From contig NC_060059.1 of assembly GCF_020283565.1 (NCBI RefSeq), positions 29,275,838 to 29,339,837 on the forward strand: a stretch of 64,000 bases of DNA. The letters run 5' to 3'. Made by a program: the position numbers and the translations under genes. Position 1 is the first letter of the stretch. Each line of letters begins with the position of its first letter. The notes under the pieces are model-generated. The model worked only from the letters and a program-made list of their open reading frames with translations. It had not been told where the DNA came from and did not search any database. This DNA comes from Trifolium pratense (taxonomy: Eukaryota; Streptophyta; Magnoliopsida; Fabales; Fabaceae). This document shows positions 28,159 through 63,578 of this stretch, in pieces.

Positions 28159-28553
28159 TGTTAGAAATTGATGTTCTTCTTAAGCCCATATCCATTGTGA
28201 TCCAAGCTCATCCATTGTAGGATCTATCCATAGCATTTTGTATGTGATACACTTGGCTTATTGCAAGTATCACACTTGTATTATTGCATGTAGTTTCCCT
28301 TACCACTTGTATAGATGCATGTACTTCCTTTACCACTTGTTATGTTGCATGTATTTCTCTTGACACTTGTCTTCATGCATGTAAGCTAAGTAGTTGCTCC
28401 TTCTACTATAAATAGGAGTTCACAATGTACCTTGTATCATCCAACAATTAGCAACATAACATCTTCCTCCAAAACTTTATTGTCTTTCTAGTTTTCTAGT
28501 TTCTCTAACCTTCTTCTCCACCACTTTACAATAGCCTTTGTTTTTTCTTACAT
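28159..28553 (+). repeat. 5' LTR of the Copia element
   Basis: It starts TGTTAG and ends TTACA immediately before the primer-binding site. It contains tandem-like phrases (taccacttgt with gcatgta) and a TATA-like ctataaatagg near 28409. Confidence 0.92.
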
Positions 28554-28641
28554 GGTATCAAGAGCTTCATTGATCTTAACGGGTCTGTGAGGAAACAAAA
28601 CCAGCAAGAAAACATTCGTAAAAAACCTCTATACACCATAA

Positions 28642-31600: not shown

Positions 31601-32592
31601 CGAAGAATGAAGTAAAGCTAATAGTGTCCCTGTATGTTGATGATTTGTTGGTTATAGGGAATGAATCCAATTCTCTAAGTCAATTCAAGCAAGCTATGGA
31701 GAATGAATTTGAGATGACAGATTTGGGTGAAATGAAATATTTTCTTGGAATGGAGATTTTTCAGTCAAGTGTTGGAATCTTCATTTCACAAAAGAAATAT
31801 GCTTTGGAGGTATTAAAGAAGTTTCATATGGATAAGTGCAAGCCTGTATCCACACCTCTGGTTGTGAATGAAAAATTATCAAAGGATGATGGTGATAATA
31901 GTGCAGATGCTTCTATTTATAGAAGTATAATTGGAAGTTTGTTGTATCTTTCAGCAACAAGACCTGATATAATGTTTGCTGCTAGCTTACTTTCCAGGTT
32001 CATGCATTCTCCAAGTCAAGTTCATCTTGGTGCAGCTAAGAGAGTTTTGAGGTATATAAAGGGTACAACTGATTATGGTTTGCATTTCTTGAAAAATGAA
32101 AGTGGAGACCTCCAAGGATATACAGATAGTGACTGGGCTGGAAGTGTAGATGATGCGAAAAGTACCTCTGGTTATGTTTTCTCATTTGGCAGTGCTGTGT
32201 TCTCATGGAATTCAAAGAAGCAAGAAGTGGTCGCCCAATCATCAGCTGAAGCTGAGTATATTTCTGCTGCAGCAACAAATTAAACTATTTGGCTAAGGAA
32301 AATTTTATCAGATGTGGGACAATTTCAAAGCAAAGCTACTGTCATATGGGTGGATAACAAATCTGCTATTGCCATAGCAAAGAATCCAGTCCAACATGGA
32401 AGAACCAAACATATCAAGGTTAAATATCATGCTATTAGAGAAGCTGAAAAGTCAAAGGAAATCAGTTTGAAGCATTGCAATTCAGAAAATCAAATTGCAG
32501 ATATAATGACTAAAGCTCTTTCTAAGGGAAAGTTTGAAGAGTTGAGGTCAATGCTTGGAGTATTCAAGAAAAACATCAAGGAGGAGTGTTAG
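28642..32592 (+). pseudogene. Copia gag-pol polyprotein with three in-frame stops
   Basis: One continuous frame of 1317 codons is broken only by stops at 29539-29541 (TAG), 31429-31431 (TAA) and 32281-32283 (TAA). Gag (first 299 residues) ends in a CCHC knuckle (CRACNQLGHVEKVC). The protease has LIDSGCTNHM (about 29638). Integrase has the HHCC region (WHKRLGHF, CDVCQYGK) and D-D-E core (FIDDF, SDNGTEY, NGVSERKN). RT has SLYVDDLLV. RNase H has YTDSDWAG and AEAEY, and the product ends in KEEC with its stop inside the 3' LTR. There are no frameshifts. The first stop separates gag from pol; natural readthrough there cannot be excluded, but the other two fall inside conserved RT and RNase H and inactivate the copy. 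Confidence 0.92.
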
Positions 32593-32899
32593 AAATTGAT
32601 GTTCTTCTTAAGCCCATATCCATTGTGATCCAAGCCCATCCATTGTAGGATCCATCCATAGCATTTTGTATGTGATACACTTGGCTTATTGCAAGTATCA
32701 CACTTGTATTATTGCATGTAGTTTCCCTTACCACTTGTATAGATGCATGTACTTCCTTTACCACTTGTTATGTTGCATGTATTTCTCTTGACACTTGTCT
32801 TCATGCATGTAAGCTAAGTAGTTGTTCCTTCTACTATAAATAGGAGTTCACAATGTACCTTGTATCATCCAACAATTAACAACATAACATCTTCCTCCA
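32587..32899 (+). repeat. 3' LTR of the Copia element, left part
   Basis: It aligns with 28159-28470 of the 5' LTR. It is interrupted at 32899 by a LINE insertion, whose target duplication catcttcctcca is 32888-32899. Confidence 0.92.
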
Positions 32900-45600: not shown

Positions 45601-46646
45601 AGTGCATCCTCCAATTGCCTTCTTTCATCTTCGGTCAAAATATCGTTAAGTTCTTCACTCTCGGTTTCATTTCCATTGCAAGATGAGAATAACTCGTCAT
45701 CTGTCATAGCTCCAGGAACACCTCTAGATTTTATACTTACAACAACATTGTGCATATCATACACCTTAGCTTTCCAAGTCCCTACCATTTCTGTTTTCTC
45801 CTGGCGCCTCCAAGTCAACTGAGGCAAAAGAACTGCCTGCGTAACATCAATACCGGGCCTAAATATATTTGTTTTAGACATTGCAGCCACTTCTTGCTGA
45901 ACTTCTTCATCATTTGCTGCAAAAGCAGCATCGTCTAGAGCATTTAGTACCTCCTTTTCTTTGTGTGAGATCATGCAGAGTGAACCAGGTTGGACTTTCC
46001 CATCCTCTGAACCATCGCCAAGAAAAAGAACACTTTGATCTGATCTCTGAATTCTAAAACCGTCGAAACCAGCCAAAGTCATGTCAGCCCTTAGATTCGC
46101 ACCCCTTTTCCAAATCTTGTAAGTATCCGAAGGTGCAATCCTTGAAATGAAAGGAATCACAGAACTCTCAAAATTGAAAGTAATCTCCATATAAAAGTCT
46201 CTCATCCTTCGCATAGTCGCAACCAAACGAGGCAACCTTCTACACCATTTCGCCCAAGCCAAAGGCTGATAATGCTTGATTATGATCTTTGCAATTCGCT
46301 CTTCTCTACTGCAAATAGCTTCTTGAAGAGAACTCCAACCTTGTTCATTCTGCAAACTCCAATCTGCACCAACAACCATAAGCATTTCAGCAGCCACTTC
46401 ATCCCCTAATTTTACAGCCAAATGAAGAGGTGTATCGCGATTCGGTACATCCCTCCTATCAATCACAGCAGATATTGCATCAGCCTTCTCTTCCTCTAAA
46501 ATCGAAATCGCTTCCGTACGAACCTCAGACACATTACACAGTTTAGGTAAACCCCCAAGTATCCTCTTAAGTTCAACATAATCCTTCAAAATCACAGCCT
46601 TATGTACAGGACTATGACCAAACTTCACAACATCAATCCCTGCCAT
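42634..46646 (-). CDS. Ankyrin-repeat/GPCR-chaperone-domain protein (ANKRD13-like)
   Basis: Two coding exons on the minus strand, 46646-45045 and 42975-42634, join in frame across a 2.07-kb GT-AG intron to 647 residues. The N-terminus (MAGIDVVKFGHSPVHKAVI) has about three ankyrin repeats up to residue ~125, including RDTPLHLAVKLGD and GADWSLQNEQGWSSLQEA. From ~140 follows the domain of the GPCR-chaperone/ANKRD13 family (WCRRLPRL, DFYMEITFNFES, LRADMTLAGFDGF). A polar lysine-rich linker and a conserved WLSPNFPLKIEELLPLLDI segment follow. TEDERRQLEDALKLDSSE (~340) resembles a ubiquitin-interacting motif. Animal relatives act on internalised, ubiquitinated membrane proteins; the plant role is unknown. 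A GA-rich leader (47345-47540, CT-rich on the sense strand) precedes it. The gene is intact. Confidence 0.9.
44179..44407. repeat. Foldback element in the ankyrin-gene intron
   Basis: The arms 44179-44215 and 44371-44407 are 37-bp inverted repeats with one mismatch, starting tgcaattttaaatac. The spacer is 155 bp. Size and structure suggest a MITE, but no target duplication is clear. Confidence 0.6.
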
Positions 46647-47734
46647 ACCTCAACAGCAAAAGGGATAGATGCAAAGATAGATAAACCTTACACCAATCCA
46701 CACTAACAATCACAAGTACAAACACATAATCTCTTCAAAAATCAAAACTTTTCCCAATTGGGACACCACAAACTTGTACAATAATCCAACCAGCACTCAA
46801 AACCACAACAAATGAATCAAATGAAACAGACCCTTGTTCACAATTTCCCTCCACAGCACAAACAAAAGGGTACCTATACCTATATCTATATAACCAAAAA
46901 AAAACATTTAAAAAAAAACATTTTTAGAATCAGAATGAAAAAAGCATAACAGAAAATGAAGAAAGAAAGAAAAGCATGATGTGGGGTCAGAGATCAAGAA
47001 GGTATAGTAAGTAACTAACCTTTGTTCCTTTCTTCCAATGATGATTTTGTTTGTCCAATGATTATTTATTAATTACTCCAAAAAAATGAAGGTTAGTAAA
47101 AATGAAACAAACCCCACCACACCACACAGCACAGCACAAACAAACCTTTGAAGTAAGAAACAAAAAGGGAAAATAGCAAAGATCCTTGTGATCCAATCCA
47201 GATCAGACAAGCATGGAGAGAACATGCATATGAATGCGTGAACAAAAAATTCTATAATAAAATAATTAAGAAAATATTATTATATTATATTAAAAATAAA
47301 AAAGGAAAAATTGAGAAAACACAAGACACAAGAAAGAAGAAAGTGTGAAGAGAGAGAGAGATCTAAGAAAGAGAGAAAAACCCCACAAAGAGAAAGATCA
47401 AAAAGAAGAAAAGGGAAAGTTGATTGATTATGTTGAGAAAGGTATATCTAACTAAAAATGGATAAAGAAGTTTCGAAGTGAAAAAGAGTTAAAAGAAAGA
47501 TAATTGCGAGGAAAAGAGAAAAGAAAAGAATATCGGTGGTGGAGTCAAAGGTTTATAAAATCGTGTCGTGTGTGTATCTAACACCATGTAGCATTTACAA
47601 CAACATTATTCAACACAAAATAAAATAAAATAAAATAAAGACCATATAAGATTATTCGACACAAAGATAATATAAAGACCATGTACAAGAAATTTCTAAG
47701 TCAATTATTTTATTAAATGAAACAATATTATAAG
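46647..47734 (-). promoter_or_regulatory. 5' leader and upstream region of the ankyrin gene
   Basis: On the minus strand this is the 5'UTR side of the ankyrin gene. An acceptor-like ag/gt lies just before ATG 46646, and CT-rich tracts (GA-rich as written, 47330-47540, including gagagagagaga) are typical of plant leaders. A 5'UTR intron is plausible. No other gene is seen. Confidence 0.4.
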
Positions 47735-47872: not shown

Positions 47873-49464
47873 CCCTCAAATTTGGAAAAAGTTTTTTTTT
47901 TGGTCAAAAAAACCAATTTTGTTTCTTTTTGGTCCAAAAATCATTTTTTGTGGTCAAAAAAACTTTTTTTCTTTTTGGTCAAAAAATCATTTTTTGATTT
48001 GAGTCATTTGACCAATTTTTTTTTTTTTTTTGCAGCATTGACTAATTTTAGTTATAATTTGAAAAAACATGTGTTAGGAAATTGTAGGAGTTGAACATTG
48101 TACTTTCTTTTTGTTAATATAAATTTTAAAAAAATTAATATTTTAATCTTTAAATGAGACGAAAAAGTTGTGAGTTTTGTAATTTATATTGATTAATATA
48201 GTAATTGAAGTTGATTTAGTTAATTATAAAAAACAAATCGATTTAGTTAATAAGAAGTTGACTATTACGGAGTATTTTTGTAAGGACATGCGTTCAATTT
48301 TTTTTGTCAAGTAATCTGACGGCTAGAAAATTCAGTGAATAAGTGAGTATCCGAAGTTCGAGCTCCGACTCCTGCACATATAGTGTGATGTTCCTGTCAG
48401 CTGAACTATGTTCATGGGGACTATTTGATTTTATTTTCACCGAATGAGTTCAAATTTCATTAGTGAATAATTTGTGAGTACATCTGTAAGCATAAATATA
48501 GATGAATTTAATTTATATACAACATTGATGTATAAAATTATTTTATACTTACATCCAATAATATATTTACACATCATGTCATGTATTTTAAAACATATGA
48601 CGTGTCACATTCATTAAATGACGTGACAATACATTATTGAATACATGTGTAAAATAAATTTACACTGACAGTACACATCAATTAAACTCAATATAGACAG
48701 GGCAACCAAAACTAGAAAATATAAGTTGACAGTGTAAAATAATTTTACACTGTTAATTAATTATAATCATATTTTCTGTCACATCACCCAATTTTACTCT
48801 ATTTTTTTTAATATAATACTGTATAGTAGAAGATTGAACTATTTTTATTGCAATCTAAAATTAACGTGCGTATCTTTTAAACTTGAAACAAAATTAAACA
48901 TACAATTCTTTTTGTTTTGTTTCTTAAGAATAATGATAAAATGCACTAGAAAGAAAAGTTAAATAGTTGTAAATCAATGTTACTTGTAGACGTAAAACTT
49001 TTTCTAATTAAGGGAAAAAATGGGATAATAAAGGCATTTGTAAGTTTTGGCGATGAATTTTTATGCAGGAAAAAAATGTAATGTTGGACGAGAAGGAGGC
49101 ATAGGAAAAGTCAGACAGGGCCGGGAAGAAAAGGGTTCATTGGATGGAAATGATGAAATGGAAAATGGTATCATAATGCATGTGATTCAGAAAAGTAGGT
49201 GCCTACTTTCCTATTTCTTTAGCTTAAATTGTTACTATATTTTATCAAACCAAAACAAATAAAAATAAAAAAATAATTTTTTTATAAGCAATGTTAATCA
49301 TTAATATTACAATGTTATGTTAATTTTTTCTCATTTATCAGGACTTGAACCATGGACCTTTCGCTCAGTTGAGCTACCAATCCCACCAAAAAATATAAAT
49401 AAATAATTAAATTGTTAATATAGTATTTTATTTCCTCCTCATTTGCAGTGGTATTAGAGCATCT
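47873..49464. other. Intergenic with low-complexity repeats and a MITE copy
   Basis: Bases 47885-48015 are a degenerate tandem tract of ttttggtcaaaaa and tcattttttg. Bases 48507-48686 are a MITE-like element related to 10234-10402. A tRNA-like fragment in reverse orientation (complement of tagctcaactgag and ggttcaagtcc) is at 49341-49378. The bases before the Gypsy insertion (gtggtattagagcatct) resemble a degraded primer-binding site. No gene is supported. Confidence 0.45.
48507..48686. mobile_element. MITE-like element, related to 10234-10402
   Basis: It starts tttaatttatatacaac and ends cacatcaattaaa. Blocks tccaataatatat, acatcatgtcatg and cattcattaaatgacgtgac follow the same order as at 10234-10402. 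Confidence 0.55.
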
Positions 49465-50248
49465 TGTTTACGTTGGAATTTGGTAAACAACCGCTAGTTT
49501 AAGTATTTAAACTCGCGAGATCAACTAGTAAATCTCAGGACAATTTTGTGTTTATTCGCTTCAAGAAAACTGTTTGAATGTTCGTTTGAATAAGGAAACA
49601 AACATTTAGGAATCAAAATATTTTAAAGCATACAAGAGAAACTAATTCGAATCGCCTCGAAGTAGCAGTTTCTCAAGCGAGTATCTGGATTCAGACTTAG
49701 AAAAAATTACTGGAAAACAAATTGCATTGCATTGAATGAAAAACAATTACAAATAAAGATGGTTCACAAAACATACATTTCTCCTTTGAATTCCGTTCGT
49801 TCGATCGCTGAGTACTTAGAATTTTTAGAGAGAATGTTTGTATAAATTTTGTGACCCTTGTTCAGAATGAAAAACTACTATAAATACTACTACAAAGTGG
49901 TAACTGTTCTTCGATCATCTGGACGCTCCTCCATTTGCCACGTCGACCACGTTCTCCACTTTCATCTTTCATTCCTTCAGCGCGCGCCAAGATCTTTTGG
50001 GCCGTTCGTTGTTTCTTTTTTTTGGGCTTGGCCCAACTGTCTCTCGATTCGATTTTGCGCCTTCGATAGCCTTCTGGTAAAACCAAAACTATACGCATCT
50101 TCTACAGCTCTCGAAACGCTTTTCTGCTTCGACATAGGGAGTTCTCGACACCAACTTTGAAAGTTTTATTTTGATAATATAACCTCCAAAATAAATATTG
50201 GACCCACCAATTATATTTAATTGATAAATACCAAATTTATGTCCAACA
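49465..50248 (-). repeat. 3' LTR of the Gypsy element
   Basis: On the plus strand it runs TGTTTACGTTGG to TCCAACA, 784 bp. I saw no difference from 62767-63550 on side-by-side reading. An open frame at 49858-50160 is duplicated exactly in the other LTR and is not a gene. Confidence 0.93.
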
Positions 50249-50395
50249 AATTGCCCCCCAAAAATGCCATTTTCGACGGTGTCTATCGAAAGAGGAAGTG
50301 GCATTTTTGAAAGTATTAATGGATAACTTTCTTTTCCATTTATCTCTCCTATCGTTTAGGCTGCCATTCAAAACTTTGGATTGGCTCCAAAACTT

Positions 50396-50396
<1 letters not shown>

Positions 50397-50435
<39 letters not shown>
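50397..50435 (+). repeat. Poly(T) tract, 39 bases
   Basis: An uninterrupted T run lies between the 3' LTR and the TATA box of the antisense PMD gene. It is poly(A) in the sense RNA of the retrotransposon. Such a run is prone to length errors in sequencing. Confidence 0.9.
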
Positions 50436-50438
<3 letters not shown>

Positions 50439-50511
50439 TGTCAAGGGGTTTGGACACTTGTCAACATAAGAAGTTGAAAAACTTTGCTATTTTCCTCAAT
50501 CTGTGTGCCTC

Positions 50512-50519
50512 TATAAATA
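50512..50519 (+). promoter_or_regulatory. TATA box of the antisense PMD gene
   Basis: tataaata, within ctctataaatagcc, lies about 250 bases upstream of ATG 50768, after the LTR and the poly(T) run. It is the only strong TATA match in the leader region and is on the strand of the PMD gene, opposite to gag-pol. Confidence 0.55.
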
Positions 50520-50767
50520 GCCAGATTCTTCCTTTATTGCGTTTTTCTCCAATTTTCGCTCTGTCAACTGTTCATCTTCTTCTTCATCTTCTGCGATTCT
50601 TTCTTGAATTCTTGCTTTCAAAAGACTTCTTGTTCTCACCTTTCTGTTTATCACCTAGTCACCAACTTTCTTTTCACTCGGATTTTCCTCAACCGTTGCA
50701 AACAACCTGCGATTCCCAAATTTAACCCTAATCACCATTCTTTCACGCCATCTTTATACCTTCATCA

Positions 50768-53700
50768 ATGGCGTCAGATTCAGGTGTCAGAAAATTCCTT
50801 CCTTACGCCGGTAAGTGGACCGCCGCCACTCTTTCCTCTTACGATGAGGATGTGGTTCCAGAACCATCGTTGCGTCTGGACTTGCAAAAGTTTTGGGAAA
50901 GTCAATTAATCTTTCCTTATTCTGTTGATAACCTTGTGCATGCGTTTGGGGGACCCAAACCAAGTGATAAAAGCCGTAATTCCAAGGTTCTGTCTATCTT
51001 TCCTGTTTATAAACCTTGTGTTCCTAGGGTTTTCATTAGTGAACCCTATAATTTTAGCTATATCAAGGCGCCTAACAGAGTGTTTCGATCAGCTCCTTCT
51101 TTGAATGATCAATACCTTGGCTGGTTAGACAGGGTACAACGTGATAAGGCTGACATTTGGCAAGCCTGTGGTATTTATGACCTTATTCAGCTTTCTCGGA
51201 CAGGCCTTAAATATCAGCAAGAGATGATTATTGCTGCTTTACACTTCTTTGAGTCTTCCACCAACACTTTCCACTTCGAATGTGGCATGATGACTCCTAC
51301 ACTGCTGGATGTTGCTGCCATTACTGGCTTATCGCCTCTTGGCGACACTTACGATCCTTGCAAAGCTTCCGACACCATCAAATTTGATTTTCGAAACAAG
51401 TCTTACTCCAAATACATCGTGGAAAATCGAAAGACTAGCGATGAAGTAAGTGACGAAGAACACATCGCTTTCTTAACCTTATGGCTATCGCAGTATGTCT
51501 TCTGCACTCAATCTCTCCAAGTAGCCAAGAAATTCATCCCTATGGCTATTCAACTACATGAATGTCAACAATTTAACTTCGCTCGACTTATTCTTGGATG
51601 TCTTTATGAATCCATGAGGGATGCTTGTGAACACCTTAAGAGAACAGGCGATGGATCTACCTTTTTAGGTGCTGGCCCCTTTTGGTTGCTGCAATTATGG
51701 CTAACTGCCACTTTTCACGCTGAACTTGACCTTTTCTTGCCTGAGCCATACTATGAGGAATCAAGAACACGTCGAGTCGAAGGCACAAGGCTGGCGAGGA
51801 TGGTGCCTAGGGAAAGAGGCCTTGGTTATGATGTAGCCTTCCAACAGTATTTTAATGCTTTTCTCAGCCTGAAGAAGTTCAAGCCTAGCTTTGCTCCTTT
51901 TGTAGATAGGCCACTTGGTCCTCCTTGGTTTACTCACAGATTTCCTTCTCCACCAGAATTTGAGATGGTAACCAACAGCATTTGGAATGCTTACTTGATG
52001 CCTACAGTCTTGTCTTGTCGAATTGGCTTGACCTCTGGAGATTTTGGGTTAGTTGGCTACTTCCCAAACCTGGTGTCTCGCCAATTTGGCTTAACTCAAA
52101 TACTCCCTAAGAGCATATACTTGGAAGAAAGGGAGGTTTGTTTAGGCAAGCATGGCATGACAGAACCACAATTCCATTCATTCTTGAACCACTTCAATCA
52201 GCCTTCCTATGAGCTTACCCCATTCGACTTCGCTCCCTCACATGCCTGCACTAGGGAATTTTTTACCTGGTGGTCTCGACACTATGAAGGACGCCTGGTT
52301 GACAAGACTGCCTTACTCACTGCTATCTCTAATGGGTTCGACTCATCTATTTTGAACAAGATTAAGTCGAAATTGAACGCCAGAGGTATTCTTTTCGTTT
52401 TACTTTTACTTGCATCATTTTTACCTTGCGTGCTTTTCTCTTATGCGCACTTCTCCAATGCAGGGAGTAAGTCGAAGGCAGGTTCTAGCAATTCTAGCAA
52501 ACCTCTTCCTCCACCACCTAAGGTTGAACTAAAGGTAGGCCTTTGCCTTTTTTATGGCTTCTCACACTTTTGTAGGATGTCCATATTAACTTTGATATGC
52601 CCTTTCCAGATTGCTTCGCGCAAAAGGTCTCATTCAACTGAAACTCCTTCTGTTTCGAAGAAACAAAGACCTATTCCAGCCACTTGTTTGAGTGCTCCAG
52701 ATAAGGTATCCATTTAGCTTAAGACTTCTTTTTCTTTTGTCCTGAATGTGAACTTACTGAACTGTGGCCTGTAGGATATTCCTGTCCTTTCGACCATCCC
52801 TGAGCAGACTAACACTGCCACTATTCAAGATCTCCCTCATAACGCTGAACCCATTACTGATGAGAAGAAGAAAAAGAAGAAGAAGAAAAAAGAACACCAA
52901 CCCAACCAAGAAGGTACTCCTGAACACAAGTCCTCTGAGATTGAGGCACAACCTGCTACTCTGGCATCACCTGAGGACCCTCCTTTAGAGCAATCGGAGA
53001 GGAAGAAGAAGAAGAAAAAGAAGCACAGAAAGTCTCCTGCTGCAGCCACTGTTGTCGAGGCTTCTGCTACTGCAAAAGAAACAACTTCGCAGCCTGAAGC
53101 TTCTGCTACCCCTCACACCCAAGTAAGCCATTCTTATTTCTTGTTACTTCTCCAGCTTTTGGCTATGTTACTCATTCTTTCATGGTTTTATTTGTTTCAG
53201 CCACAAAACTCTGTTCAAGTTATTTCTCAGGATGAGCCTACTCCTAGCAAAGCGGCTGAAGGGATGGTCGAAGGACCAAGTGGTACGCATCCTGCAAGTG
53301 TGGCAGAAAAACCTTCATCTCCTCAGCCTGTCGAAACGGCCGTCCTTACTGAAACCTCATCACCACCCAAAGCTCCTGGCTCGCCTCACCACGCTTTCGA
53401 AGATGACACCCTTAAGCCTAGCAATGAAGAGGACCAACTTGATCAAGGCCTACCGCAACAAAATCCTTTGACGAACCCTGCCCAAGTATTAGCTGAAAAT
53501 GATCCTCCAACCAATTTTCAAGTTGACCCTGCTGCCAACCTTTCCAGTGAACAAAGGCCAACCGTTGATGGCGAACATTCCACTACCAATCAACCACAAC
53601 CAAGTGGGTCAAACCATGAGTCTAGTTCACCCAGTGCTGGCACTTTCGACTCTGAAGATGGGAACTCCTATATTGGTGATTCTCTTGGTGAAGAGGGAAC

Positions 53701-54508
53701 TTCCGTGTCGAAACCTCCTCCTACTGTTGTCTTACCGGCTGAACTTGCCAAAGAGCTAAGAGATTTAACCCCGGCAGATGCACTCAACAAGCTTTTATCA
53801 AGTCATGGCGCCTCTAGCTCTGCTGTTGGGAACACGGAAGATAAGGAAGATGCACTTGCGCAAGAACAGTTTGAGCACGAAATCAGATTTAGGCGAGAGA
53901 TCCTTAATGGGGATATGCTGGGCCTGCTTGAACATGATTCTTCTATATACTACAATATCAAAGCCCTTTTTCGCAAGCTGCAGAACCCAAGGACTGACGA
54001 AGCCATGTTCCTTCTAGTGACTCAGGCTGAAACCTTTTTAGAACAATTCGTTAGTCAATCTCAGCTCCTAACCAGGACTAGCAGCCTTTTGACATCTCTG
54101 CTTGCCACCCAGCAACACCATTTCGAACAAGCTAATAGTTGCAATGCAGAGGTCACAACTATCAAGGCTGCCTCTGATGAAGCTCTTGAGCAACTTGTGG
54201 CTTGTGAGAACAATATTGCTCAATGGCAATCTGAAATCGAAGCGCTAAAGGCAAAGATTCGACAAGAGGAGGCTAAGATGGAAAAGCTAGCTGCAGTGGC
54301 CATTGAAGCACAAAAGGTTAAGCTTGATGAGCTAGCACGTGAAGGTATCCAACACTACAGTGATGGTCTGGCTGTCCAGAAGCGAGTTGAGCACCTTGCT
54401 AGTGATAAGGAAATGCTACAACGTAAACTGGCGTCCATTCGAACTCAGTATTACCAATTTCAGGCGGCCAATCGAAAGCCTCCTTCAACATCCCAACAAC
54501 AACCTTGA
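50768..54508 (+). CDS. Plant mobile domain (PMD) protein, antisense cargo of the Gypsy element
   Basis: Five exons (50768-52385, 52464-52534, 52610-52705, 52775-53122, 53201-54508) join at GT-AG junctions in frame to 1146 residues. Residues ~80-480 match the plant mobile domain (aminotransferase-like PMD): ADIWQACGIYDLIQLSRTGL, FHFECGMMTPTLLDVAAITGL, FLTLWLSQYVFC and GPFWLLQLWLTATFH. Two lysine clusters (KKKKKKKKE and RKKKKKKKH) follow at about 650-710 and may be nuclear signals. A Ser/Pro/Glu-rich stretch comes next, and the last ~200 residues are predicted coiled coil (AQWQSEIEALKAKIRQEEAKM). PMD proteins such as MAIN and MAIL1 of Arabidopsis affect gene and transposon silencing; PMDs also occur in MULE and Gypsy elements. 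The gene lies antisense between integrase and 3' LTR, with its own TATA box. Its activity is unknown. Confidence 0.85.
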
Positions 54509-54877
54509 CTTTATAAATTTTCCTTTTAGTCTCAAGTTTTTGTTATTTTTGGATGTCGTAATTGTAAATCTTTTAACACTAGCAACCGTCGAACAATGTC
54601 GTACATGCTTTTTTAGATGTATGCCCTTTTTGGCCTTTTATGCTGCATGTTCATATATTTGCTGAGTATTTTATTTTTCTTGTTGCTTGCTTTCCCTCTT
54701 TTGGGCTATTCTCCCAAGCCTTATTAATGACACTTTGTAAGGAATGAAGCGAACATGTTTCCAAAGCAGTCAACATAATTAACTACATGGCTTTGAGCAT
54801 TAATGCAATGGCCTTTCCTATGCAAACTGAACGTGGTTAGTTGTAACTGCCCAGTCATTAACGCGTCTTAATTCTTC

Positions 54878-54885
54878 TATAAATA
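54878..54885 (+). promoter_or_regulatory. TATA box of the small antisense gene
   Basis: tataaata (in cttctataaatacccac) lies 77 bases before ATG 54955. This fits a short leader and a separate promoter from that of the PMD gene. Confidence 0.6.
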
Positions 54886-54954
54886 CCCACACCTTGCAAC
54901 TCTTTTTGCTCGTCACTTCATACAAACTAACGCATCAACACCTCTCCACAAAGA

Positions 54955-55305
54955 ATGGATAACAAGAAAGATCTTCCTTCCTCTACCCCGGGCTCAAGCA
55001 CATCGCGTCCTCTTGGAAGGGGACGAATCAAGATTCCAGCTTCCAAACCTCCACGCACTAGAATCCTTCGCCCTAGGCCGGCACCAGCCAAGGTAGTAGA
55101 AACCATCATTCTCTCTTCTGATTCTTCAAGCTCTAGTTCAGATGATGAAGATGAGGATTACCTTGAGTTCCTCAGTACCCTAGAGCCTGATGAAGAATAC
55201 CCAGGAACTCCAACTCCTTCTTCTGAGGATGAAGACTCTCAGATCTCAGAACTTTCCAATTCTGATTCAAAGGATGAGGGAACTCGGGTTCAGGGTAAAC
55301 CTTAA
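54955..55305 (+). CDS. Small acidic, serine-rich protein, second antisense cargo gene
   Basis: This 116-residue frame starts MDNKKDLPSSTPGSSTSRPL. The N-terminal half is basic and proline-rich (RGRIKIPASKPPRTRILRPR). The second half is a serine run (SSDSSSSSSDDEDEDYLEFL) followed by more acidic residues (EPDEEYP, SSEDEDS). I do not recognise a family. It has its own TATA box 77 bases upstream and a polyadenylation-like aataaa at 55389-55394, and converges with the integrase end on the other strand (stop at 55445). The charge pattern would suit a nuclear or chromatin-binding adaptor, but that is speculation. It could also be a chance frame, although promoter spacing and strand agree with the neighbouring PMD gene. 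Confidence 0.6.
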   Translation: MDNKKDLPSSTPGSSTSRPLGRGRIKIPASKPPRTRILRPRPAPAKVVETIILSSDSSSSSSDDEDEDYLEFLSTLEPDEEYPGTPTPSSEDEDSQISELSNSDSKDEGTRVQGKP

Positions 55306-55444
55306 GTGTTTATCTTTCAACATTCAACCATTTCTTGTATTTTCTTGAACATTCTTGAATGATTGGTTGTATTGTTGATTTTATATGAAATAAAACTTGA
55401 TTATTGGCATTTCCTTCTACCATTTCGCAAATTTTATTCTTGCG

Positions 55445-58400
55445 TTATTCACTTTTTATGGTTATTTCTTGCAACATTGGCTTGTATTTCTTTAAATATT
55501 TGCCATTCATATTGACTGAACGTCTCTCAGGAGTTAACTCTTCAATCTCATAAGCTCCATTTGACAAAACTTGAGAAATCTTAAATGGTCCTTCCCAATT
55601 GGGTGACCATTTTCCAAAGACTCGATCTCGTCTGTCCATGGGGAGGATGACTTTCCAAACTAAGTCTCCTACGTCAAAGAGTTTGGATTTAACCCTTTTG
55701 TTATACGCTCTAGCAATTCGTTCTTTTTGTCGAATCAAAGCATCTAACGCCTGCAACCTTTCCTCATCCACGTCTGTTAATTCATCTAACATTATGTTCT
55801 CATAGTGATCAGGAGGTAGTTCCCATTGCCTTTGTATTCGAATCGACTGCATCATTATTTCAACAGGTAACACGGCATCGTGACCATATGTTAGTCGAAA
55901 AGGTGTCGAACCTGTTGACTCTTTAGGAGAATTCCTACATGCCCATAGGACTTGGTCCAGGGTCTTATGCCAATTCTTTGGTTTTTGGGCAACGTGCTTT
56001 TTAATTAAACTAATTATAACCTTGTTGGCTGCTTCAACTTGGCCATTTGCTTGAGCATAATAAGGCGTCGAAGTCATTAGCTTAAAACCTGATTGTTCAG
56101 CAAAATTTTGCATCTTTCGACCAACAAACACCGTTCCTTGGTCAGTAGTGATCGTCTCAGGAAGCCCAAACCTATAAATAATATGGTCTTGGATAAAATT
56201 GATCACTGTCTCCTGATCCACATTTGTCAGGGCAACAGCCTCTATCCATTTGGTAAAATAATCAATCCCAACTAGTATATAACGTTGGTTCTTGGATGAC
56301 GCGGGCCTTATCTCACCAATTAAATCTAAAGCCCAGCCTCTAAAAGGCCAAGGTTTGATAATCGAATGCAACTCACTGGCGGGAACGTGTTGTATCCCCG
56401 CGTGTTTTTGACACTCTTGACAACCTTTCGCATATTCTATGCAGTCCTTAAGCATGGAAGGCCAATACAAACCCTGTCGAAACAAAAGCCATTTCATCTT
56501 GTGGCCTGCTTGATGGGCACCACAGGCTCCACTATGGGCATTTGAAACTGCTACATACGCTTCGTTTTCATTTAGGCATTTCAACAAAACCCCTTCAGGA
56601 GTCTTCTTAAATAGTTCATTTCCCATGATTGTGTAATTCAAGGCTCTATACTTAACCTTCCTATCGGCTGTACCTGTTGGATTTTCTATGTATTTAACAA
56701 TGGGTTGTCTCCAATCCGTGTCAGCCAAATTGTCAATCACAAAGACTTCAGTCATTACTTCATCAAAATGTGCATCAGCCATTTCGGACTCCCTTTCGCC
56801 ATTTGGTTCGTTTGCCCCCAGCTGATAGGGTATTACCTCACATGAGATTAGTTTTTCTTTAATTTCAACTATCTCATCTAATTTTTTCCCCGTTACCTTA
56901 TAACCAGAAGCTATTTGGGCTAAGTCATTTGCTTCTTGGTTTTCGATCCGAGGCACGTGTTGAATGTCGCACGAATCAAACCGTTTTAGTAACGAGAAGG
57001 CAATGACAAAGTATTTCATCAAATGTTCTTGAATGCATTTGTATTCCTTTGTCAATTGTTTTATTACTAACTCAGAATCTCCTCTGATTTTAACATGTTT
57101 TGCCCCCAAGTCCAAAATAATCCTTAGACCTACAATTAAAGCCTCGTACTCGGCTTCATTATTGGAGCATGTTCCATTAATCTTGTACTTAAATTTTGTT
57201 GGAATCTTTAAAGGAGAAATGATTAAGATTCCAACTCCTGTACCATGTTTGTGCTTCGAGCCATCGAAGTACAACATCCAAGGTTCATGTTCTACATATG
57301 TTATTGAGGTCTCAGTCACCGAGTGGTCAACAAGAAAATCAGCCACTACTTGACCCTTTACAGCCCTCAGGGGTTGGTAAGTCAATGAATATTCAGTTAA
57401 AGCTAAAGCCCATTTCCCAATTCGACTATGCAAAATTGGTTTTAACAACATATGCTTAATGATGTCAAAATGAGAATAAACATAAACATGAACTGGTTTG
57501 ATATATTGCTTAAGTTTGGTACAAGAGAAATACAAACATAGACAAAGCTTTTCAATTGGACTATATCTAGTCTCAGCATCATTCAAGATTCTACTTAGAT
57601 AATAAATAGCCTTTTCTACGCCATTTTCATCCTCTTGTGCGAGCATGCTTCCAATAGTCGAATCTGATGCTGCGATGTACAACTTCATTGCTTTGTTTCG
57701 AATAGGAGGCATTAAAGTTGGAGGCTTCGACAAGTATGCCTTAATATCATCAAATGCCTTTTGTTGTTCCATTCCCCATTCAAATACATCACCTTTCTTG
57801 AGCCTCAGCAGTGGAGAAAAAGGTTGAGCTTTACCACTTAGGTTTGATATAAACCTTCTCAAGAAATTGACCTTTCCTAGCAAAGATTGAAGCTGTTTCT
57901 TCGTTCCTGGAGGTTCTGTCTCCATGATAGCCTTTGTCTTATTTTGGTTAATTTCTATGCCCTTCTTATGCACAACAAAGCCAAGGAAATCTCCTGCATG
58001 TACACAAAAAGCACATTTCAGTGGATTCATTTTTAATCCACATTTTCTCATTCTTTCGAACGATTTTTTAAGATGTTCGATATGTTCATCCTGGGAAGCG
58101 GATTTCACAACAATATCATCAATATAAACCTGCATAAATATTTCGATAAAATCATGAAAAATTAAGTTCATAGCTCTTTGGTATGTTGCTCCAGCATTTT
58201 TCAATCCAAAAGGCATCACCACCCACTCATAGGTGCCTAAAGCACCAGGGCAACGAAATGCGGTTTTTGGCACATCATCTTCATCAATAAAGATTTGATT
58301 ATAACCTGAATAGCCATCTAACATACTCAAATATTCATGCCCTGCTGCTGAATCAACTAACATTTCGGCTATAGGCATGGAATATTCATCTTTAGGTGTA

Positions 58401-59110
58401 GCATTATTCAAGTCTCTAAAGTCTATGCAAACCCTAAGTGATCCGTTTTTCTTAATAACAGGAACAATGTTAGCTAACCATTCCACATACCTGGTTGTTC
58501 GAATGAACTTGCATTTGAGCAACCTTTCAATTTCTGCTTTGATCTTTGTCATGATTTCTGGTGCAAACCTCCTTGGAAGCTGCTTTACAGGTTTCTTATC
58601 TGGTCGAAGGGGTAGCCTATGCTCCACAAGATTTCTGCTTAACCCAGGCATTTCGTTATAGTCCCATGCAAAGCAATCTCTGTATTTCTTAAGCAACTCG
58701 ACCATTTTTTCTCTTAAGGTTGGGTCTATATTGGCACTAATGTAAGTTGGCCTTTTAACAGAGCCATCTCCAATATCAACCTCCTGCAAAGGGTCTTGGG
58801 CTTGCATTCTCTGAATCGAACTATGTGGATCTTTCTCAAAACCCAAAGGCTCATCATCATAGATGCAATCTAACCTTTGCTTTTTCCCATCATTTACTTC
58901 ACTAGCCTCCAAGGCCAGTTCGTTCCTTAAGTCATCGTTGGCTTCGACAGCCATATTTTCTTGAACATTAATGGCCTCAAGAGCCATTTTGATTCTATTC
59001 TCGGCTGCGTAAGCCGTAATTCGATCCCATGCTGGGGACTCAATCATCAAACTCATCGTGGTTGACCCATCCAGACACTGGTGGGTATGCATCCTCACAC
59101 AAGGGTTTCT
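55445..59110 (-). CDS. Gypsy pol: reverse transcriptase, two RNase H domains, integrase
   Basis: The frame is open on the minus strand from 59110 (stop codon just upstream at 59111-59113) to the stop at 55445, with the first ATG at 59092. RT: LPRRFAPEIM, SLRVCIDFRDLNNATPK and the catalytic QVYIDDIVV (~58120). The first RNase H has AASDSTIGSMLAQ and YSPIEKLCLCL. The second, diverged RNase H has YFDGSKHKHGTG, NNEAEYEAL and RGDSELVIKQL; a pair like this marks the Tat lineage. Integrase: zinc region (HQAGHKMKWL, CQECQKH), core D-D-E (ALDLIGEI, TTDQGTVF, GQVEAAN) and a C-terminal VGDLVWKV. No internal stop is present. It overlaps the gag-protease frame by 71 nt in the +1 frame, so it needs frameshifting, reinitiation or splicing. 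Confidence 0.92.
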   Translation of the reverse strand, partial: RNPCVRMHTHQCLDGSTTMSLMIESPAWDRITAYAAENRIKMALEAINVQENMAVEANDDLRNELALEASEVNDGKKQRLDCIYDDEPLGFEKDPHSSIQRMQAQDPLQEVDIGDGSVKRPTYISANIDPTLREKMVELLKKYRDCFAWDYNEMPGLSRNLVEHRLPLRPDKKPVKQLPRRFAPEIMTKIKAEIERLLKCKFIRTTRYVEWLANIVPVIKKNGSLRVCIDFRDLNNATPKDEYSMPIAEMLVDSAAGHEYLSMLDGYSGYNQIFIDEDDVPKTAFRCPGALGTYEWVVMPFGLKNAGATYQRAMNLIFHDFIEIFMQVYIDDIVVKSASQDEHIEHLKKSFERMRKCGLKMNPLKCAFCVHAGDFLGFVVHKKGIEINQNKTKAIMETEPPGTKKQLQSLLGKVNFLRRFISNLSGKAQPFSPLLRLKKGDVFEWGMEQQKAFDDIKAYLSKPPTLMPPIRNKAMKLYIAASDSTIGSMLAQEDENGVEKAIYYLSRILNDAETRYSPIEKLCLCLYFSCTKLKQYIKPVHVYVYSHFDIIKHMLLKPILHSRIGKWALALTEYSLTYQPLRAVKGQVVADFLVDHSVTETSITYVEHEPWMLYFDGSKHKHGTGVGILIISPLKIPTKFKYKINGTCSNNEAEYEALIVGLRIILDLGAKHVKIRGDSELVIKQLTKEYKCIQEHLMKYFVIAFSLLKRFDSCDIQHVPRIENQEANDLAQIASGYKVTGKKLDEIVEIKEKLISCEVIPYQLGANEPNGERESEMADAHFDEVMTEVFVIDNLADTDWRQPIVKYIENPTGTADRKVKYRALNYTIMGNELFKKTPEGVLLKCLNENEAYVAVSNAHSGACGAHQAGHKMKWLLFRQGLYWPSMLKDCIEYAKGCQECQKHAGIQHVPASELHSIIKPWPFRGWALDLIGEIRPASSKNQRYILVGIDYFTKWIEAVALTNVDQETVINFIQDHIIYRFGLPETITTDQGTVFVGRKMQNFAEQSGFKLMTSTPYYAQANGQVEAANKVIISLIKKHVAQKPKNWHKTLDQVLWACRNSPKESTGSTPFRLTYGHDAVLPVEIMMQSIRIQRQWELPPDHYENIMLDELTDVDEERLQALDALIRQKERIARAYNKRVKSKLFDVGDLVWKVILPMDRRDRVFGKWSPNWEGPFKISQVLSNGAYEIEELTPERRSVNMNGKYLKKYKPMLQEITIKSE

Positions 59111-62100
59111 CTATATCTTCCCTTTCCCAACAAAAGCCATGGGTTGGATGCAACTTAACTGAGTGGTATACATTTTTTGATACCACTTCATTTGGATCGA
59201 AGGCAGCATCTTGCTCACCACAAGGAGCAATCGAGGCCAGGTTTTTGTCGAAATTCTGTAAAGTCACAGTGCCTGTCTCTGAAACATATGCACTCTGATC
59301 TGCTTCTACGTTCTCGACTAAACCATCTTCTCTCCAGATGATTAATCTTTGGTGCATGGTTGAGGGAACAGCTCCAACACCATGTATCCATTCTCTACCT
59401 AATAACAAATTGTAATTAGGTTTGGCAGCTATGACCATAAACAAGGTCTTTCGAACTGTACTGCCAACACAAACTTCCAACTGCACTGCCCCCAGGGAAT
59501 GACCAGTTTTTCCTTCATAGTTGGCCAACACCACATTGTGGGAATGAAGGTCTGTGTCATAGAGACCTAATTTCTTCAACATGAAGTGAGGCATGATGTT
59601 CACCACAGCTCCTCCATCCACTAAGACTTTATTGATTCCCACATTGTTGACTTTTGCCCTAATGAACAAAGCTTTCAAGTGGTTCTGCATTCCCAGATCT
59701 GGCTTTTCGAAGACAGCTTTTTGCTCTTCGACACAACCATTTTGCATAACATAATAACACATTGGCTTATGATCAGCCAAATTGAGGGCTTCGAAGTCCT
59801 CTTCCAGCTCATTGACTTCAGTAGGTATATCATATTCCAGTGGCAGAATCGACACCACATTGACCATGACATCAAAATCAGACCCCTCATCCAGGAGATC
59901 ATCATCCTCCATGTCATCCTCATCTTCTGCCCCTCCTTGGGCATTTTCAGCTGTTGGCTCTTCCAATATAATGGAAAGCCTCTCCTTTACTGGCCTCTTG
60001 GCCATTTCAACCTTTTCAGCCTTCTGGGTTGCTACAGCTTTGCCCCCAGCCTCAGCCTCTTTTGTTGTCAACTTTTGTTTCCTCTGGAACCTTCGCCATT
60101 GAGTGCGGGTCATAGGATTTTTTCCCTTATAGTTATTCCTATAAGAGTATTTGTTGACTTCAGTGGCAGCATTCACTTTTTCCTTCCCAGCTACCACTTT
60201 TGAACCCTTGGGTTCAGATACAATGTTCACATTAACATTGCTAGAGCTTCCATTTTCCATCATCCTTCGATTGAAAGTGACGTACTGTCCACTCACCCAT
60301 TGGTTAACAGGTGCTCTCCCAGATGGTTTGAAAGTGTTTTGGGGGCCTAGCCTTTGCTGGATCGAAAGGCCTTTGGTAATAGGCTTTCCCCAGTTGGCTC
60401 CTTTGTAAGGCCAAGCTTTCTGATTTGGCCTAGATTTTGGCCATTTTCTCTTGTTTTCAGCATAAGGTACAACACTTTGAAGGCCTGCAGTAGCCTCTTT
60501 GTCGCACACAGCACTGCATCTAGGGCAAAGCATCACTTCAGCATTCTTCAGCTTGCACCTATTTAGGAAGTCCACCAATTCTTCCTCAGCGTTGGGGTAC
60601 ACCTCACGTACCCTCTTTTCATACTCCTCTTCAGGCACAGCCTTGATTGGAGCAGCAGCGTCTATCACTTCAACCATGTTGCAGTCATAGACTTCGACAT
60701 AGGTAGCGTCTGCAGGTGGCAAGGGATCTGAATCTACCTTCATTGGAGGCTTTGCCTTATCAGCATACTTCAGCCTTCCTTCATTCAGCGCTTTTTGCAC
60801 CAGATCCCTGAAAACAACACATTGATAAGTTTTATGTCCCAAATAATTATGAAACTTACAATAACCTCTTTTCTTTCTTTGTTCTATTGGTGGTATTTTC
60901 ATATCTTTTGGCACAATAATTTGGCCGTCAGTCACCAATAAATCAAAAATCTCATCACATTTAGTAATGTCGAAAGTATAAGTCTTTGTAACAAACTTAT
61001 CATTTTTTGGTTCGATAGGATTTTTTCCATTCGACGGCCTCAACAATTTGCAAGTGTAAGGAGGCCCAGGCTTTAATTCAGCCACATTAATATCACTATC
61101 GTCGAAATCTAAGTATTCATCACTCGTTTCATAATCAATTTCATTATCATAGGAATCAACAAAACCTATTTCTTTCTTTTTCTGAAACTTAGAATTTCTA
61201 ACTTTTTCAGCTTTTAACCTTTCGATTTGTCTCACTCTGTCAGCCAACTGTGACATGTCTCGAAGGTATTGGGTATCCAATTTCTTTCGAATTGAATAAT
61301 CTAACCCACCAGCAGCCATTTCCACTAGCTCGTGTTCAGGCACTTGAGTAAAGCACCTGGATTTCAGCAAACGAAACCTATTTAAATAGTCATCAATTGA
61401 CTCTAGGTTTTTCCTTTTTACACTGGCTAACTCTTTCAGACTTATCTTGGTTTGGCCCATATAAAATTGCTCGTGGAAAATCCTTTCCAATTGGGCCCAA
61501 CTATTGATCGAATTGGGAGGCAAAGTTGTAAACCAAGTGAATGCATTCTTGGTAAGCGAATTAGGAAAATACTTCATTCGCAAATTTTCATTATTCGCCA
61601 AATTCCCAGACTCAGCTAGATACCTGGCAATATGTTCTACGGTTGATTCATTAGTGTCCCCAGCAAACTTAGTGTATTTTGGGACTTTCCAACCTCTTGG
61701 TAACTCGGTTTGCAGCACATATTCAGTGAAGGCAGAGACAAAGTTTGGCCTTCGACAACCCGTGTTTAGGCCGTTTTGGGCCAAAATCGTTTCGACCATG
61801 TTAGCCAAATTGTGTTGGCCAAGCAAATTATTGTTTTGTACCTCTCGCACTACCTCGTCAGGATCCTGGTTCCTCCTAACCATTACCACTGGAGGGTTCT
61901 GATGTACCACTTGTGGATTTGGGTTCATAACAGGAGGGTTTTGATGTACTAATTGAGGCATTTGATTAACCTCGTGAGGATAATAGGTTTCCTCTTGTAC
62001 AACTGGTGTAGGTGTTGGGTTAGGAACTGTTTCAGTAGCCACATAGGTTGGCCTTTGCTGCACTGGAGTCGAAGACATTGCAGGTAGTATTACTTGTGGA

Positions 62101-62657
62101 GTAATGGGATTTACTCTAGGAGGTGGTGGGGGTGTCCCAAAAAAATCTGCAATTCGACTCATTTGAAATGCCAACATTTGATAACTCTCGTTGGTATTCT
62201 GAATTAATGGATTAAACACAGTACCCATTTGTTGTGTTAAGAGATTAACCATTTCATGGTTGCTCTCATCCATTTGTTGTCTCAAAGACAACACAGATGC
62301 AGTCGTTAAGGGTGTAGGAGTTACCCTTGACGAAGTATACCTATCAGATTCGAAACTTGGCATTCCTAAACCAAGTGTAGGGGGAGGCCCATACATAAAA
62401 CCCTGACCTGACGGTGGTTTCGAACGTCCAAAACCAGCAGTTACGGACGGAATTGCCATAGTTGGAATTGGCAAAGTTGGAATAACATCATGCACAGTCG
62501 AAATGGTTGGACTGGAGAATATTGGAACATTCACTAACTCAGATGTTACCACACTTTGTGGAGGTGGATCGACTCCACCACTCGAACTCGCTTCGCTACT
62601 CATCGCACTAGAACTTGGAGTTTTACTAGGATTAGATCTCTGAGTAGTTTTAACCAT
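59040..62657 (-). CDS. Gypsy gag-protease polyprotein
   Basis: ATG 62657 opens 1205 uninterrupted codons. The first ~290 residues are proline- and serine-rich. The capsid-type Retrotrans_gag domain is at about 322-455 (FTWFTTLPPNSINSWAQLER, HEQFYMGQTKISLKEL). A Tat/Athila-type zinc motif CKFHNYLGHKTYQC is near residue 600. A lysine-rich linker and an acidic EDEDDMEDDDLLDEG stretch follow. The retropepsin active site is VLVDGGAVVNIM, with Asp at ~1014 in the DGGA form, and LLLGREWI lies further on. The frame ends at 59040 inside the start of pol. The structural proteins package RNA and the protease cleaves the polyprotein. Confidence 0.9.
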   Translation of the reverse strand: MVKTTQRSNPSKTPSSSAMSSEASSSGGVDPPPQSVVTSELVNVPIFSSPTISTVHDVIPTLPIPTMAIPSVTAGFGRSKPPSGQGFMYGPPPTLGLGMPSFESDRYTSSRVTPTPLTTASVLSLRQQMDESNHEMVNLLTQQMGTVFNPLIQNTNESYQMLAFQMSRIADFFGTPPPPPRVNPITPQVILPAMSSTPVQQRPTYVATETVPNPTPTPVVQEETYYPHEVNQMPQLVHQNPPVMNPNPQVVHQNPPVVMVRRNQDPDEVVREVQNNNLLGQHNLANMVETILAQNGLNTGCRRPNFVSAFTEYVLQTELPRGWKVPKYTKFAGDTNESTVEHIARYLAESGNLANNENLRMKYFPNSLTKNAFTWFTTLPPNSINSWAQLERIFHEQFYMGQTKISLKELASVKRKNLESIDDYLNRFRLLKSRCFTQVPEHELVEMAAGGLDYSIRKKLDTQYLRDMSQLADRVRQIERLKAEKVRNSKFQKKKEIGFVDSYDNEIDYETSDEYLDFDDSDINVAELKPGPPYTCKLLRPSNGKNPIEPKNDKFVTKTYTFDITKCDEIFDLLVTDGQIIVPKDMKIPPIEQRKKRGYCKFHNYLGHKTYQCVVFRDLVQKALNEGRLKYADKAKPPMKVDSDPLPPADATYVEVYDCNMVEVIDAAAPIKAVPEEEYEKRVREVYPNAEEELVDFLNRCKLKNAEVMLCPRCSAVCDKEATAGLQSVVPYAENKRKWPKSRPNQKAWPYKGANWGKPITKGLSIQQRLGPQNTFKPSGRAPVNQWVSGQYVTFNRRMMENGSSSNVNVNIVSEPKGSKVVAGKEKVNAATEVNKYSYRNNYKGKNPMTRTQWRRFQRKQKLTTKEAEAGGKAVATQKAEKVEMAKRPVKERLSIILEEPTAENAQGGAEDEDDMEDDDLLDEGSDFDVMVNVVSILPLEYDIPTEVNELEEDFEALNLADHKPMCYYVMQNGCVEEQKAVFEKPDLGMQNHLKALFIRAKVNNVGINKVLVDGGAVVNIMPHFMLKKLGLYDTDLHSHNVVLANYEGKTGHSLGAVQLEVCVGSTVRKTLFMVIAAKPNYNLLLGREWIHGVGAVPSTMHQRLIIWREDGLVENVEADQSAYVSETGTVTLQNFDKNLASIAPCGEQDAAFDPNEVVSKNVYHSVKLHPTHGFCWEREDIEKPLCEDAYPPVSGWVNHDEFDD

Positions 62658-62747
62658 AACCTAACTTATCATGAGTTATATGCAAGTAACAAGTTTTTTA
62701 TTCCACAATATAAAAATAAACACAACTTTAACAAACACAAAACCAGT

Positions 62748-62766
62748 CCCACTGGGCGTGCCAATT
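62748..62766 (-). other. Presumed primer-binding site of the Gypsy element
   Basis: Directly inside the 5' LTR (minus-strand sense), the sequence aattggcacgcccagtgggac is where the tRNA primer site must lie. I did not identify the tRNA with certainty. Confidence 0.5.
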
Positions 62767-63550
62767 TGTTTACGTTGGAATTTGGTAAACAACCGCTAGT
62801 TTAAGTATTTAAACTCGCGAGATCAACTAGTAAATCTCAGGACAATTTTGTGTTTATTCGCTTCAAGAAAACTGTTTGAATGTTCGTTTGAATAAGGAAA
62901 CAAACATTTAGGAATCAAAATATTTTAAAGCATACAAGAGAAACTAATTCGAATCGCCTCGAAGTAGCAGTTTCTCAAGCGAGTATCTGGATTCAGACTT
63001 AGAAAAAATTACTGGAAAACAAATTGCATTGCATTGAATGAAAAACAATTACAAATAAAGATGGTTCACAAAACATACATTTCTCCTTTGAATTCCGTTC
63101 GTTCGATCGCTGAGTACTTAGAATTTTTAGAGAGAATGTTTGTATAAATTTTGTGACCCTTGTTCAGAATGAAAAACTACTATAAATACTACTACAAAGT
63201 GGTAACTGTTCTTCGATCATCTGGACGCTCCTCCATTTGCCACGTCGACCACGTTCTCCACTTTCATCTTTCATTCCTTCAGCGCGCGCCAAGATCTTTT
63301 GGGCCGTTCGTTGTTTCTTTTTTTTGGGCTTGGCCCAACTGTCTCTCGATTCGATTTTGCGCCTTCGATAGCCTTCTGGTAAAACCAAAACTATACGCAT
63401 CTTCTACAGCTCTCGAAACGCTTTTCTGCTTCGACATAGGGAGTTCTCGACACCAACTTTGAAAGTTTTATTTTGATAATATAACCTCCAAAATAAATAT
63501 TGGACCCACCAATTATATTTAATTGATAAATACCAAATTTATGTCCAACA
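62767..63550 (-). repeat. 5' LTR of the Gypsy element
   Basis: This 784-bp LTR has the same sequence as 49465-50248 on reading and is followed by the target duplication CATCT (63551-63555). Confidence 0.93.
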
Positions 63551-63578
63551 CATCTCAATAGTGAACTCATCAAAGATA

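Follow-up and report, generated by a model that had tools for sequence, protein, structure and literature searches.

The stretch of DNA analysed here (the window) comprises 64,000 nucleotides of the red clover (Trifolium pratense) genome (NC_060059.1, positions 29,275,838 to 29,339,837) and contains, at 49465-63550 on the minus strand, a Ty3/gypsy retrotransposon of the Tat clade which carries an intron-containing gene, aORF1 (antisense open reading frame 1), on its opposite strand (Table 1). The two long terminal repeats (LTRs) of the element are identical over 784/784 bp, have TG..CA ends and are flanked by the target-site duplication (TSD) CATCT, indicating a recent insertion. aORF1 lies between the integrase, encoded by the minus-strand ORF 59110-55445, and the 3' LTR (49465-50248), and its five plus-strand exons join in frame into an uninterrupted run of 1146 codons. 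The TATA box at 50512, the ATG at 50768, the five exons with GT-AG junctions, the 1146 residues and the location within a young Tat-type element, all proposed in an earlier note on this DNA, were verified in the sequence. The A+T content of the introns (60-67%) exceeds that of the exons (53-57%). The predicted protein consists of a plant mobile domain (PMD), a lysine-rich linker and a long C-terminal helix. The PMD, also part of the earlier claim, was confirmed by a match to PF10536 over aa 135-503 (E 7e-38; 131 bits against a curated cut-off of 34.9), a profile which is likewise matched by all 50 members of the PMD protein alignment. The coiled coil assigned to the same protein is backed by an AlphaFold2 model showing a single unbroken helix at about aa 978-1135, with a mean confidence (pLDDT) of 85 and an overall fold score (pTM) of only 0.40 from 11 sequences.

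Exon 1 was found at 81 or more places in the clover genome, the window included, all covering at least 530 of 531 residues; 76 of them were stop-free, the best candidates having been scored. In 70 of 100 integrase matches listed, the opposite strand carried a full-length exon 1 at a distance of 4662-4696 bp; the other 30 lacked one, some perhaps because of nested insertions or of deletions like that in L029. Conversely, of 40 places found by the DNA of the 5' leader alone, 36 had exon 1 among the matches listed. The copies analysed further are a non-random sample of 30 fetched copies plus the window: a first fetch was chosen by how similar its exon-1 protein was to that of the window (the 19 top-ranking copies and the lowest-ranking, L009), and leader-found copies were added to counter the bias of this ranking, 28 of the 40 being analysed, with two dropped (L025, truncated; L029, gene deleted) and 10 left out. 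The spliced aORF1 frame is open in 25 of these 31 sequences, one of which, L032, has an in-frame deletion; the remainder are frameshifted (L009, L022, L031), truncated (L025, L030) or lack the gene (L029). Taken together, aORF1 is a fixed, standard component of this Tat-clade family.

The introns are equally persistent. The four GT/AG pairs are retained in 20/20 first-fetch copies and in eight of the nine later gene-bearing copies, the ninth, L030, ending before intron 1, so that all four introns are present in 28/28 fetched copies that retain the stretch. When 19 copies were compared with the window (L025 dropped), nine distinct insertions or deletions were counted in 300 bp of intron, eight of them not multiples of three and one, a 1-bp deletion, common to nine copies. 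The 3441 bp of exon held six, the three that were not multiples of three occurring only in the frameshifted L009 and L022 (Fisher p 2e-7 for the contrast between intron and exon). We infer that splicing at the RNA stage leaves the introns untouched because reverse transcription copies a genomic RNA of the opposite orientation to the gene; their presence in every informative copy is consistent with this. The top-scoring proteins for exon 1 came from red clover itself. Relatives were found in T. subterraneum and other Trifolium, and T. subterraneum gene models that are 38-40% identical have the same first junction, as annotations rather than reads. In the NCBI clover model P0121, intron 4 is retained and intron 1 differs; other clover models also differ, which may reflect variable splicing or poor models. 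A search of virus sequences (IMG/VR) yielded no confirmed relative. Over a block at 52400-53099, three copies (L010, L011 and L012) are each 13.2% divergent from the window, compared with 0.8-0.9% over the rest of 50249-58900; the element copies are thus mosaics, and the sharp block edges suggest template switching or conversion within the family.

The ratio of nonsynonymous to synonymous substitution (dN/dS), proposed earlier as a test of function, is far below 1 and excludes neutral evolution. Over the 28 leader-found copies it was 0.048 for the PMD, 0.068 for exon 1 and 0.225 for exons 2-5. Among 20 sequences, including L009 and with L025 dropped, the values were 0.059 for exon 1, 0.086 for pol and 0.28 for aORF2, a second antisense frame described below; the modest rise of the exon-1 value from the 20 sequences to the leader-found set served as a check, indicating a small effect of the similarity ranking. 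Between the window and L009, the most diverged copy (synonymous distance about 0.6), dN/dS was 0.044 for the PMD (95% interval 0.023-0.071) and 0.062 for both exon 1 and pol. Since dN/dS is 0.05-0.2, the exons keep frame in open copies and the introns are free to shift, selection acts on the spliced protein, and this purifying selection is about as strong as that on pol.

Within 54510-55400 lies aORF2, which had been overlooked in the earlier note and has a TATA box 77 bp upstream. Its frame is open in 19/19 first-fetch copies that retain the region. The protein had eight matches, seven from T. pratense and one in a 562-base ENA contig, which may be a transcript.

A predicted model of the PMD (aa 78-519) had one credible match among solved structures, namely VANC21 bound to DNA, whose chain fold it shares. 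A relationship between the two domains was also seen at the profile level, some clover PMD proteins matching DUF1985, the VANC domain, in addition to PF10536. No DUF1985 match was obtained at E up to 10 for aa 1-539 of aORF1 or for 49 aligned relatives, and aORF1 is not itself assigned to that family. Sequence searches of the PDB returned no PMD or VANC relative, and a viral fold library gave no match at E 0.001 or better. The earlier idea of a cargo that may protect the element is strengthened by the VANC21-like predicted fold and the DUF1985 link. PMD genes also occur elsewhere in the clover genome, as in two Mutator-like elements (MULEs; L039 and L040) where the PMD gene is opposite to the transposase. 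Many near-identical PMD matches resemble L040, every one of them interrupted by a single TAG and a single TAA when read in six frames, and this family may be widely amplified with its PMD broken or split by introns. In the PMD protein tree, built without labelled PMD-A, B or C references, a protein of the parasitic plant Orobanche minor (P0056), which shares 49% identity with the clover gene, clusters on a long branch together with two proteins from T. pratense, making a host-to-parasite transfer possible.

A candidate target for such a protein is the palindromic motif KTCGAM (K=G/T, M=A/C), which occurs at a density of 4.12/kb in the element as compared to 0.60/kb in the rest of the window (about 7-fold) and 0-0.82/kb in ten other clover loci. 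Within the window, the density was 0.84/kb in a copia-type element and 0.35/kb in a LINE-like (long interspersed nuclear element) stretch, the highest control being an ankyrin-type host ORF with three sites (1.82/kb). The core TCGA occurs 106 times in the element. Dinucleotide shuffles gave a weaker TCGA enrichment in LTR plus leader (13 vs 6.7), and in the internal non-coding parts TCGA did not rank among the top words; codon-preserving shuffles and conservation were therefore used. Against shuffles keeping protein and codon usage, GTCGAA/TTCGAC was the most over-represented of 1855 hexamer classes (34 vs 8.1), and GTCGAA exceeded all 500 shuffles separately in gag-protease (11 vs 2.7), in the reverse transcriptase-integrase region (11 vs 2.5) and in aORF1 (12 vs 2.8). 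TCGA alone was beyond all shuffles only in gag-protease (29, maximum 27), and lay within the shuffle range in the reverse transcriptase-integrase region (26, maximum 26) and aORF1 (26, maximum 29). GTCGAA/TTCGAC occurs in mixed reading frames and on both strands (20 and 18). The element has no sizeable tandem array, and KTCGAM is dispersed, coding DNA included.

TCGA also persists between diverged copies. Between the window and L009, it was kept at 50/64 sites, the highest among the 127 tetramer classes represented by 15 or more sites; retention was 13-48% for other CG tetramers, apart from CGAC and CGAA, two words that share bases with TCGA. When non-coding DNA and third codon positions were counted, 14/127 bases had changed in TCGA, 85/176 in other CG and 855/3808 elsewhere, bases within one motif not being independent. 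In L045, a more distant copy, 10/19 TCGA survive compared with 4/43 other NCGN and 49% of all tetramers, and the motif density is maintained (3.73/kb) though 7/17 of its TCGA are absent from the window. Methylated CG sites normally decay, and it follows that TCGA either stays unmethylated or is selected; both options would fit a factor that reads TCGA.

Based on these data, it is suggested that aORF1 encodes a VANC-like, self-directed DNA-binding factor which protects the element from silencing, a reading to which we assign a probability of roughly 50%. We infer that aORF1 would be independently promoted, spliced in vivo and translated into a nuclear PMD/coiled-coil protein whose PMD may select its DNA sites by sequence in the manner of VANC21. 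Through the coil, the protein would dimerize, suiting a palindromic target, and the dimer would bind KTCGAM sites spread through the copies of the element, where it would counteract CG methylation and silencing as VANC proteins do for VANDAL MULEs. Such a function would explain why an intron-bearing antisense gene is kept under constraint about as strong as that on pol.

The most serious challenge concerns the link between motif and gene: the KTCGAM enrichment may owe nothing to aORF1 and stem instead from an unusual mutational context, from some factor of the host or from a constraint on replication, which would be compatible with any reading of the gene. The controls for KTCGAM are confined to the rest of the window and the ten other clover loci, and one host ORF reaches 1.82/kb, which leaves some room for this explanation. 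It is nevertheless considered unlikely, since the effect is specific to TCGA, the loss of other NCGN from these copies being several-fold faster, and extends to all frames and both strands, with GTCGAA beyond codon-preserving shuffles. Less probable again is a regulator of the element or its copy number that binds DNA through a VANC fold, acting as an activator or repressor of the LTR or a helper of integration or packaging, with no role in anti-silencing; the evidence from fold, selection and motif would fit it as well. TCGA is also dense in the LTR (14/kb), and a DNA motif marks the promoters of genes whose expression falls in main/mail1 mutants (PMC7156037; here and below, the cited papers are represented by excerpts). 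A regulator acting on promoters would however need its sites close to them, as opposed to 58 across 14 kb including gag-pol, and the specific escape of TCGA from CG decay points to methylation. A decoy which competes with or poisons host PMD proteins of the MAIN/MAIL type appears improbable. Host PMD-C proteins act in the silencing of transposable elements (PMC5418596, PMC7156037) and the element protein has the same domain, but an element-wide KTCGAM is not predicted, and L004, the one well-aligning PMD locus outside the family, is about 25% identical over aa 115-316. There is little to favour an effect of the antisense transcript rather than the protein, by double-stranded RNA or transcriptional interference, as raised for antisense ORFs in PMC7264820, in view of the dN/dS of 0.05-0.2, the frame-keeping exons of open copies and the frame-shifting introns. 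That a single copy picked up a host gene by chance, an outcome which the earlier note had allowed for, is refuted by the copy survey, the gene being at the same offset in 70 of the 100 integrase matches listed and having relatives in T. subterraneum and other Trifolium.

Beyond this single family, a more tentative proposal unites PMD and DUF1985 in a single superfamily of domains by which transposons bind DNA, and holds that the element runs its own VANC-type anti-silencing, with a dimeric PMD protein on palindromic KTCGAM keeping CGs unmethylated. If so, MAIN/MAIL, which serve the host in silencing, would be related to a factor that transposons use against it, and anti-silencing directed by sequence would no longer be confined to MULEs but would include LTR retrotransposons.

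The remaining features of the element agree with its classification. The pol ORF matches RT_RNaseH (472-574), RVT_3 (616-732) and rve (922-1018) in Pfam, and the assignment to the Tat clade is based on this domain order, in which an additional RNase H sits between RNase H and integrase as given for Ogre/Retand (PMC6317226); LTRs, TSD, primer-binding site, polypurine tract and gag-pol are all present. Among Tat lineages, the presence of a PMD suggests Ogre. The gag-protease and pol frames share about 70 bp (59040-59110), whereas separated ORFs are expected for Ogre, and access to pol by frameshift or, as in Ogre, by splicing is possible with such an overlap. The leader that separates the 3' LTR from the aORF1 TATA box contains a run of 39 T (50397-50435). 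Elsewhere in the window, a copia-type element (28159-32899; 313-bp LTRs 98.7% identical) abuts a LINE-like reverse transcriptase ORF (32888-35719), and an ORF of the ankyrin-repeat type (45006-46649, minus strand) is located 2.8 kb from the 3' LTR of the Tat element; the copia and ankyrin assignments were made by eye.

Table 1. Features of the Tat-clade element and its antisense genes (window coordinates).
Feature	Position	Strand	Evidence or remark
TSD CATCT, left copy	49460..49464	.	sequence
3' LTR, 784 bp, TG..CA	49465..50248	-	784/784 identical to 5' LTR
58 KTCGAM sites, candidate cis targets	49465..63550	.	motif counts
Polypurine tract adjoining 3' LTR	50249..50265	-	sequence; putative function
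TATAAATA, putative aORF1 promoter	50512..50519	+	sequence; TCTATAAATAG retained in 20/20 first-fetch copies
aORF1 exon 1, ATG 50768, encodes PMD	50768..52385	+	dN/dS 0.068, 28 copies
PMD (PF10536), aa 135-503	51170..52276	+	VANC21-like predicted fold (model aa 78-519)
Intron 1, GT..AG, 78 bp	52386..52463	+	
aORF1 exon 2	52464..52534	+	
Intron 2, GT..AG, 75 bp	52535..52609	+	
aORF1 exon 3	52610..52705	+	
Intron 3, GT..AG, 69 bp	52706..52774	+	
aORF1 exon 4, encodes lysine runs aa 626-634 and 671-678	52775..53122	+	
Intron 4, GT..AG, 78 bp	53123..53200	+	
aORF1 exon 5, stop TGA	53201..54508	+	dN/dS 0.205, 28 copies
Long helix, putative coiled coil, ~aa 978-1135	53999..54472	+	AlphaFold2, pTM 0.40
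TATAAATA, putative aORF2 promoter	54878..54885	+	retained in 19/19 first-fetch copies having the region
aORF2, 116 aa, basic N half, acidic C half	54955..55305	+	dN/dS 0.28
Pol ORF: reverse transcriptase, RNase H, additional RNase H, integrase; 1221 aa stop to stop	55445..59110	-	
Gag-protease ORF, 1206 aa stop to stop	59040..62660	-	protease matches below Pfam cut-off
Putative primer-binding site TGGCACGCCCAGTGGGACT	62745..62763	-	sequence
5' LTR	62767..63550	-	identical to 3' LTR
TSD CATCT, right copy	63551..63555	.	sequence

Several components of this system are already known. PMD genes are present in 57% of Ogre elements (PMC6317226) and the PMD-A1/A2 clades are exclusively Gypsy-encoded (PMC5418596), and antisense ORFs have been described in Tat elements (PMC7264820, PMC11963269). 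The clover element resembles the Tat-clade Ogre/Retand elements with extra ORFs in its Tat-type pol and in a PMD gene in the extra-ORF region, but its gene has five exons, keeps this structure from copy to copy, evolves under strong purifying selection and is joined by a second antisense ORF; the excerpts of PMC6317226 and PMC5418596 contain no mention of introns in Tat/Ogre PMD genes. The ORFs of Retand TRP28 (PMC11963269) and gene23 of maize Grande, which is driven by a promoter of its own and encodes a nuclear protein (PMC7264820), are also antisense between pol and 3' LTR but encode a different protein domain, and a term search of the two texts gave no mention of introns. The host genes MAIN/MAIL1 have the PMD in common with aORF1, but act in silencing, and no long coil or lysine linker is mentioned in the excerpts of PMC5418596 and PMC7156037. 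Another mobile element with a spliced antisense gene is a group I intron whose antisense gene for a homing endonuclease is itself interrupted by a spliceosomal intron (PMC9548176), although element and protein are unrelated to the clover case.

The closest functional parallel would be with VANC21 and VANC6, which belong to VANDAL MULEs, recognize a motif in non-coding tandem repeats of their own element and cause sequence-specific loss of DNA methylation (Hosaka 2017, PMC5735166; Sasaki 2023, PMC10398659). The VANC21-like PMD fold, the DUF1985 link and the KTCGAM enrichment with escape of TCGA from CG decay are apparently new, neither the PMD-VANC/DUF1985 link nor the KTCGAM motif having been found among the papers listed by searches of open-access literature, outside which lie most subscription papers and the VANC21 structure paper. 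PMD has been called a domain of unknown function (PMC7156037), as has the function of antisense ORFs in plant retrotransposons been called unknown (PMC7264820; for TRP28 proteins, PMC11963269), and a VANC-like fold together with a candidate cis motif makes both directly testable, through the DNA bound and the CG methylation there. The clover system is like VANC in its predicted fold (that of DNA-bound VANC21), in the overlap of the PMD and DUF1985 profiles and in a short candidate target motif repeated within the element; it differs in that the element, known here from its sequence, is an LTR retrotransposon and not a MULE, the gene is antisense and predicted to be spliced, the PMD protein is without a DUF1985 match of its own, and KTCGAM is spread through coding DNA rather than concentrated in tandem repeats.

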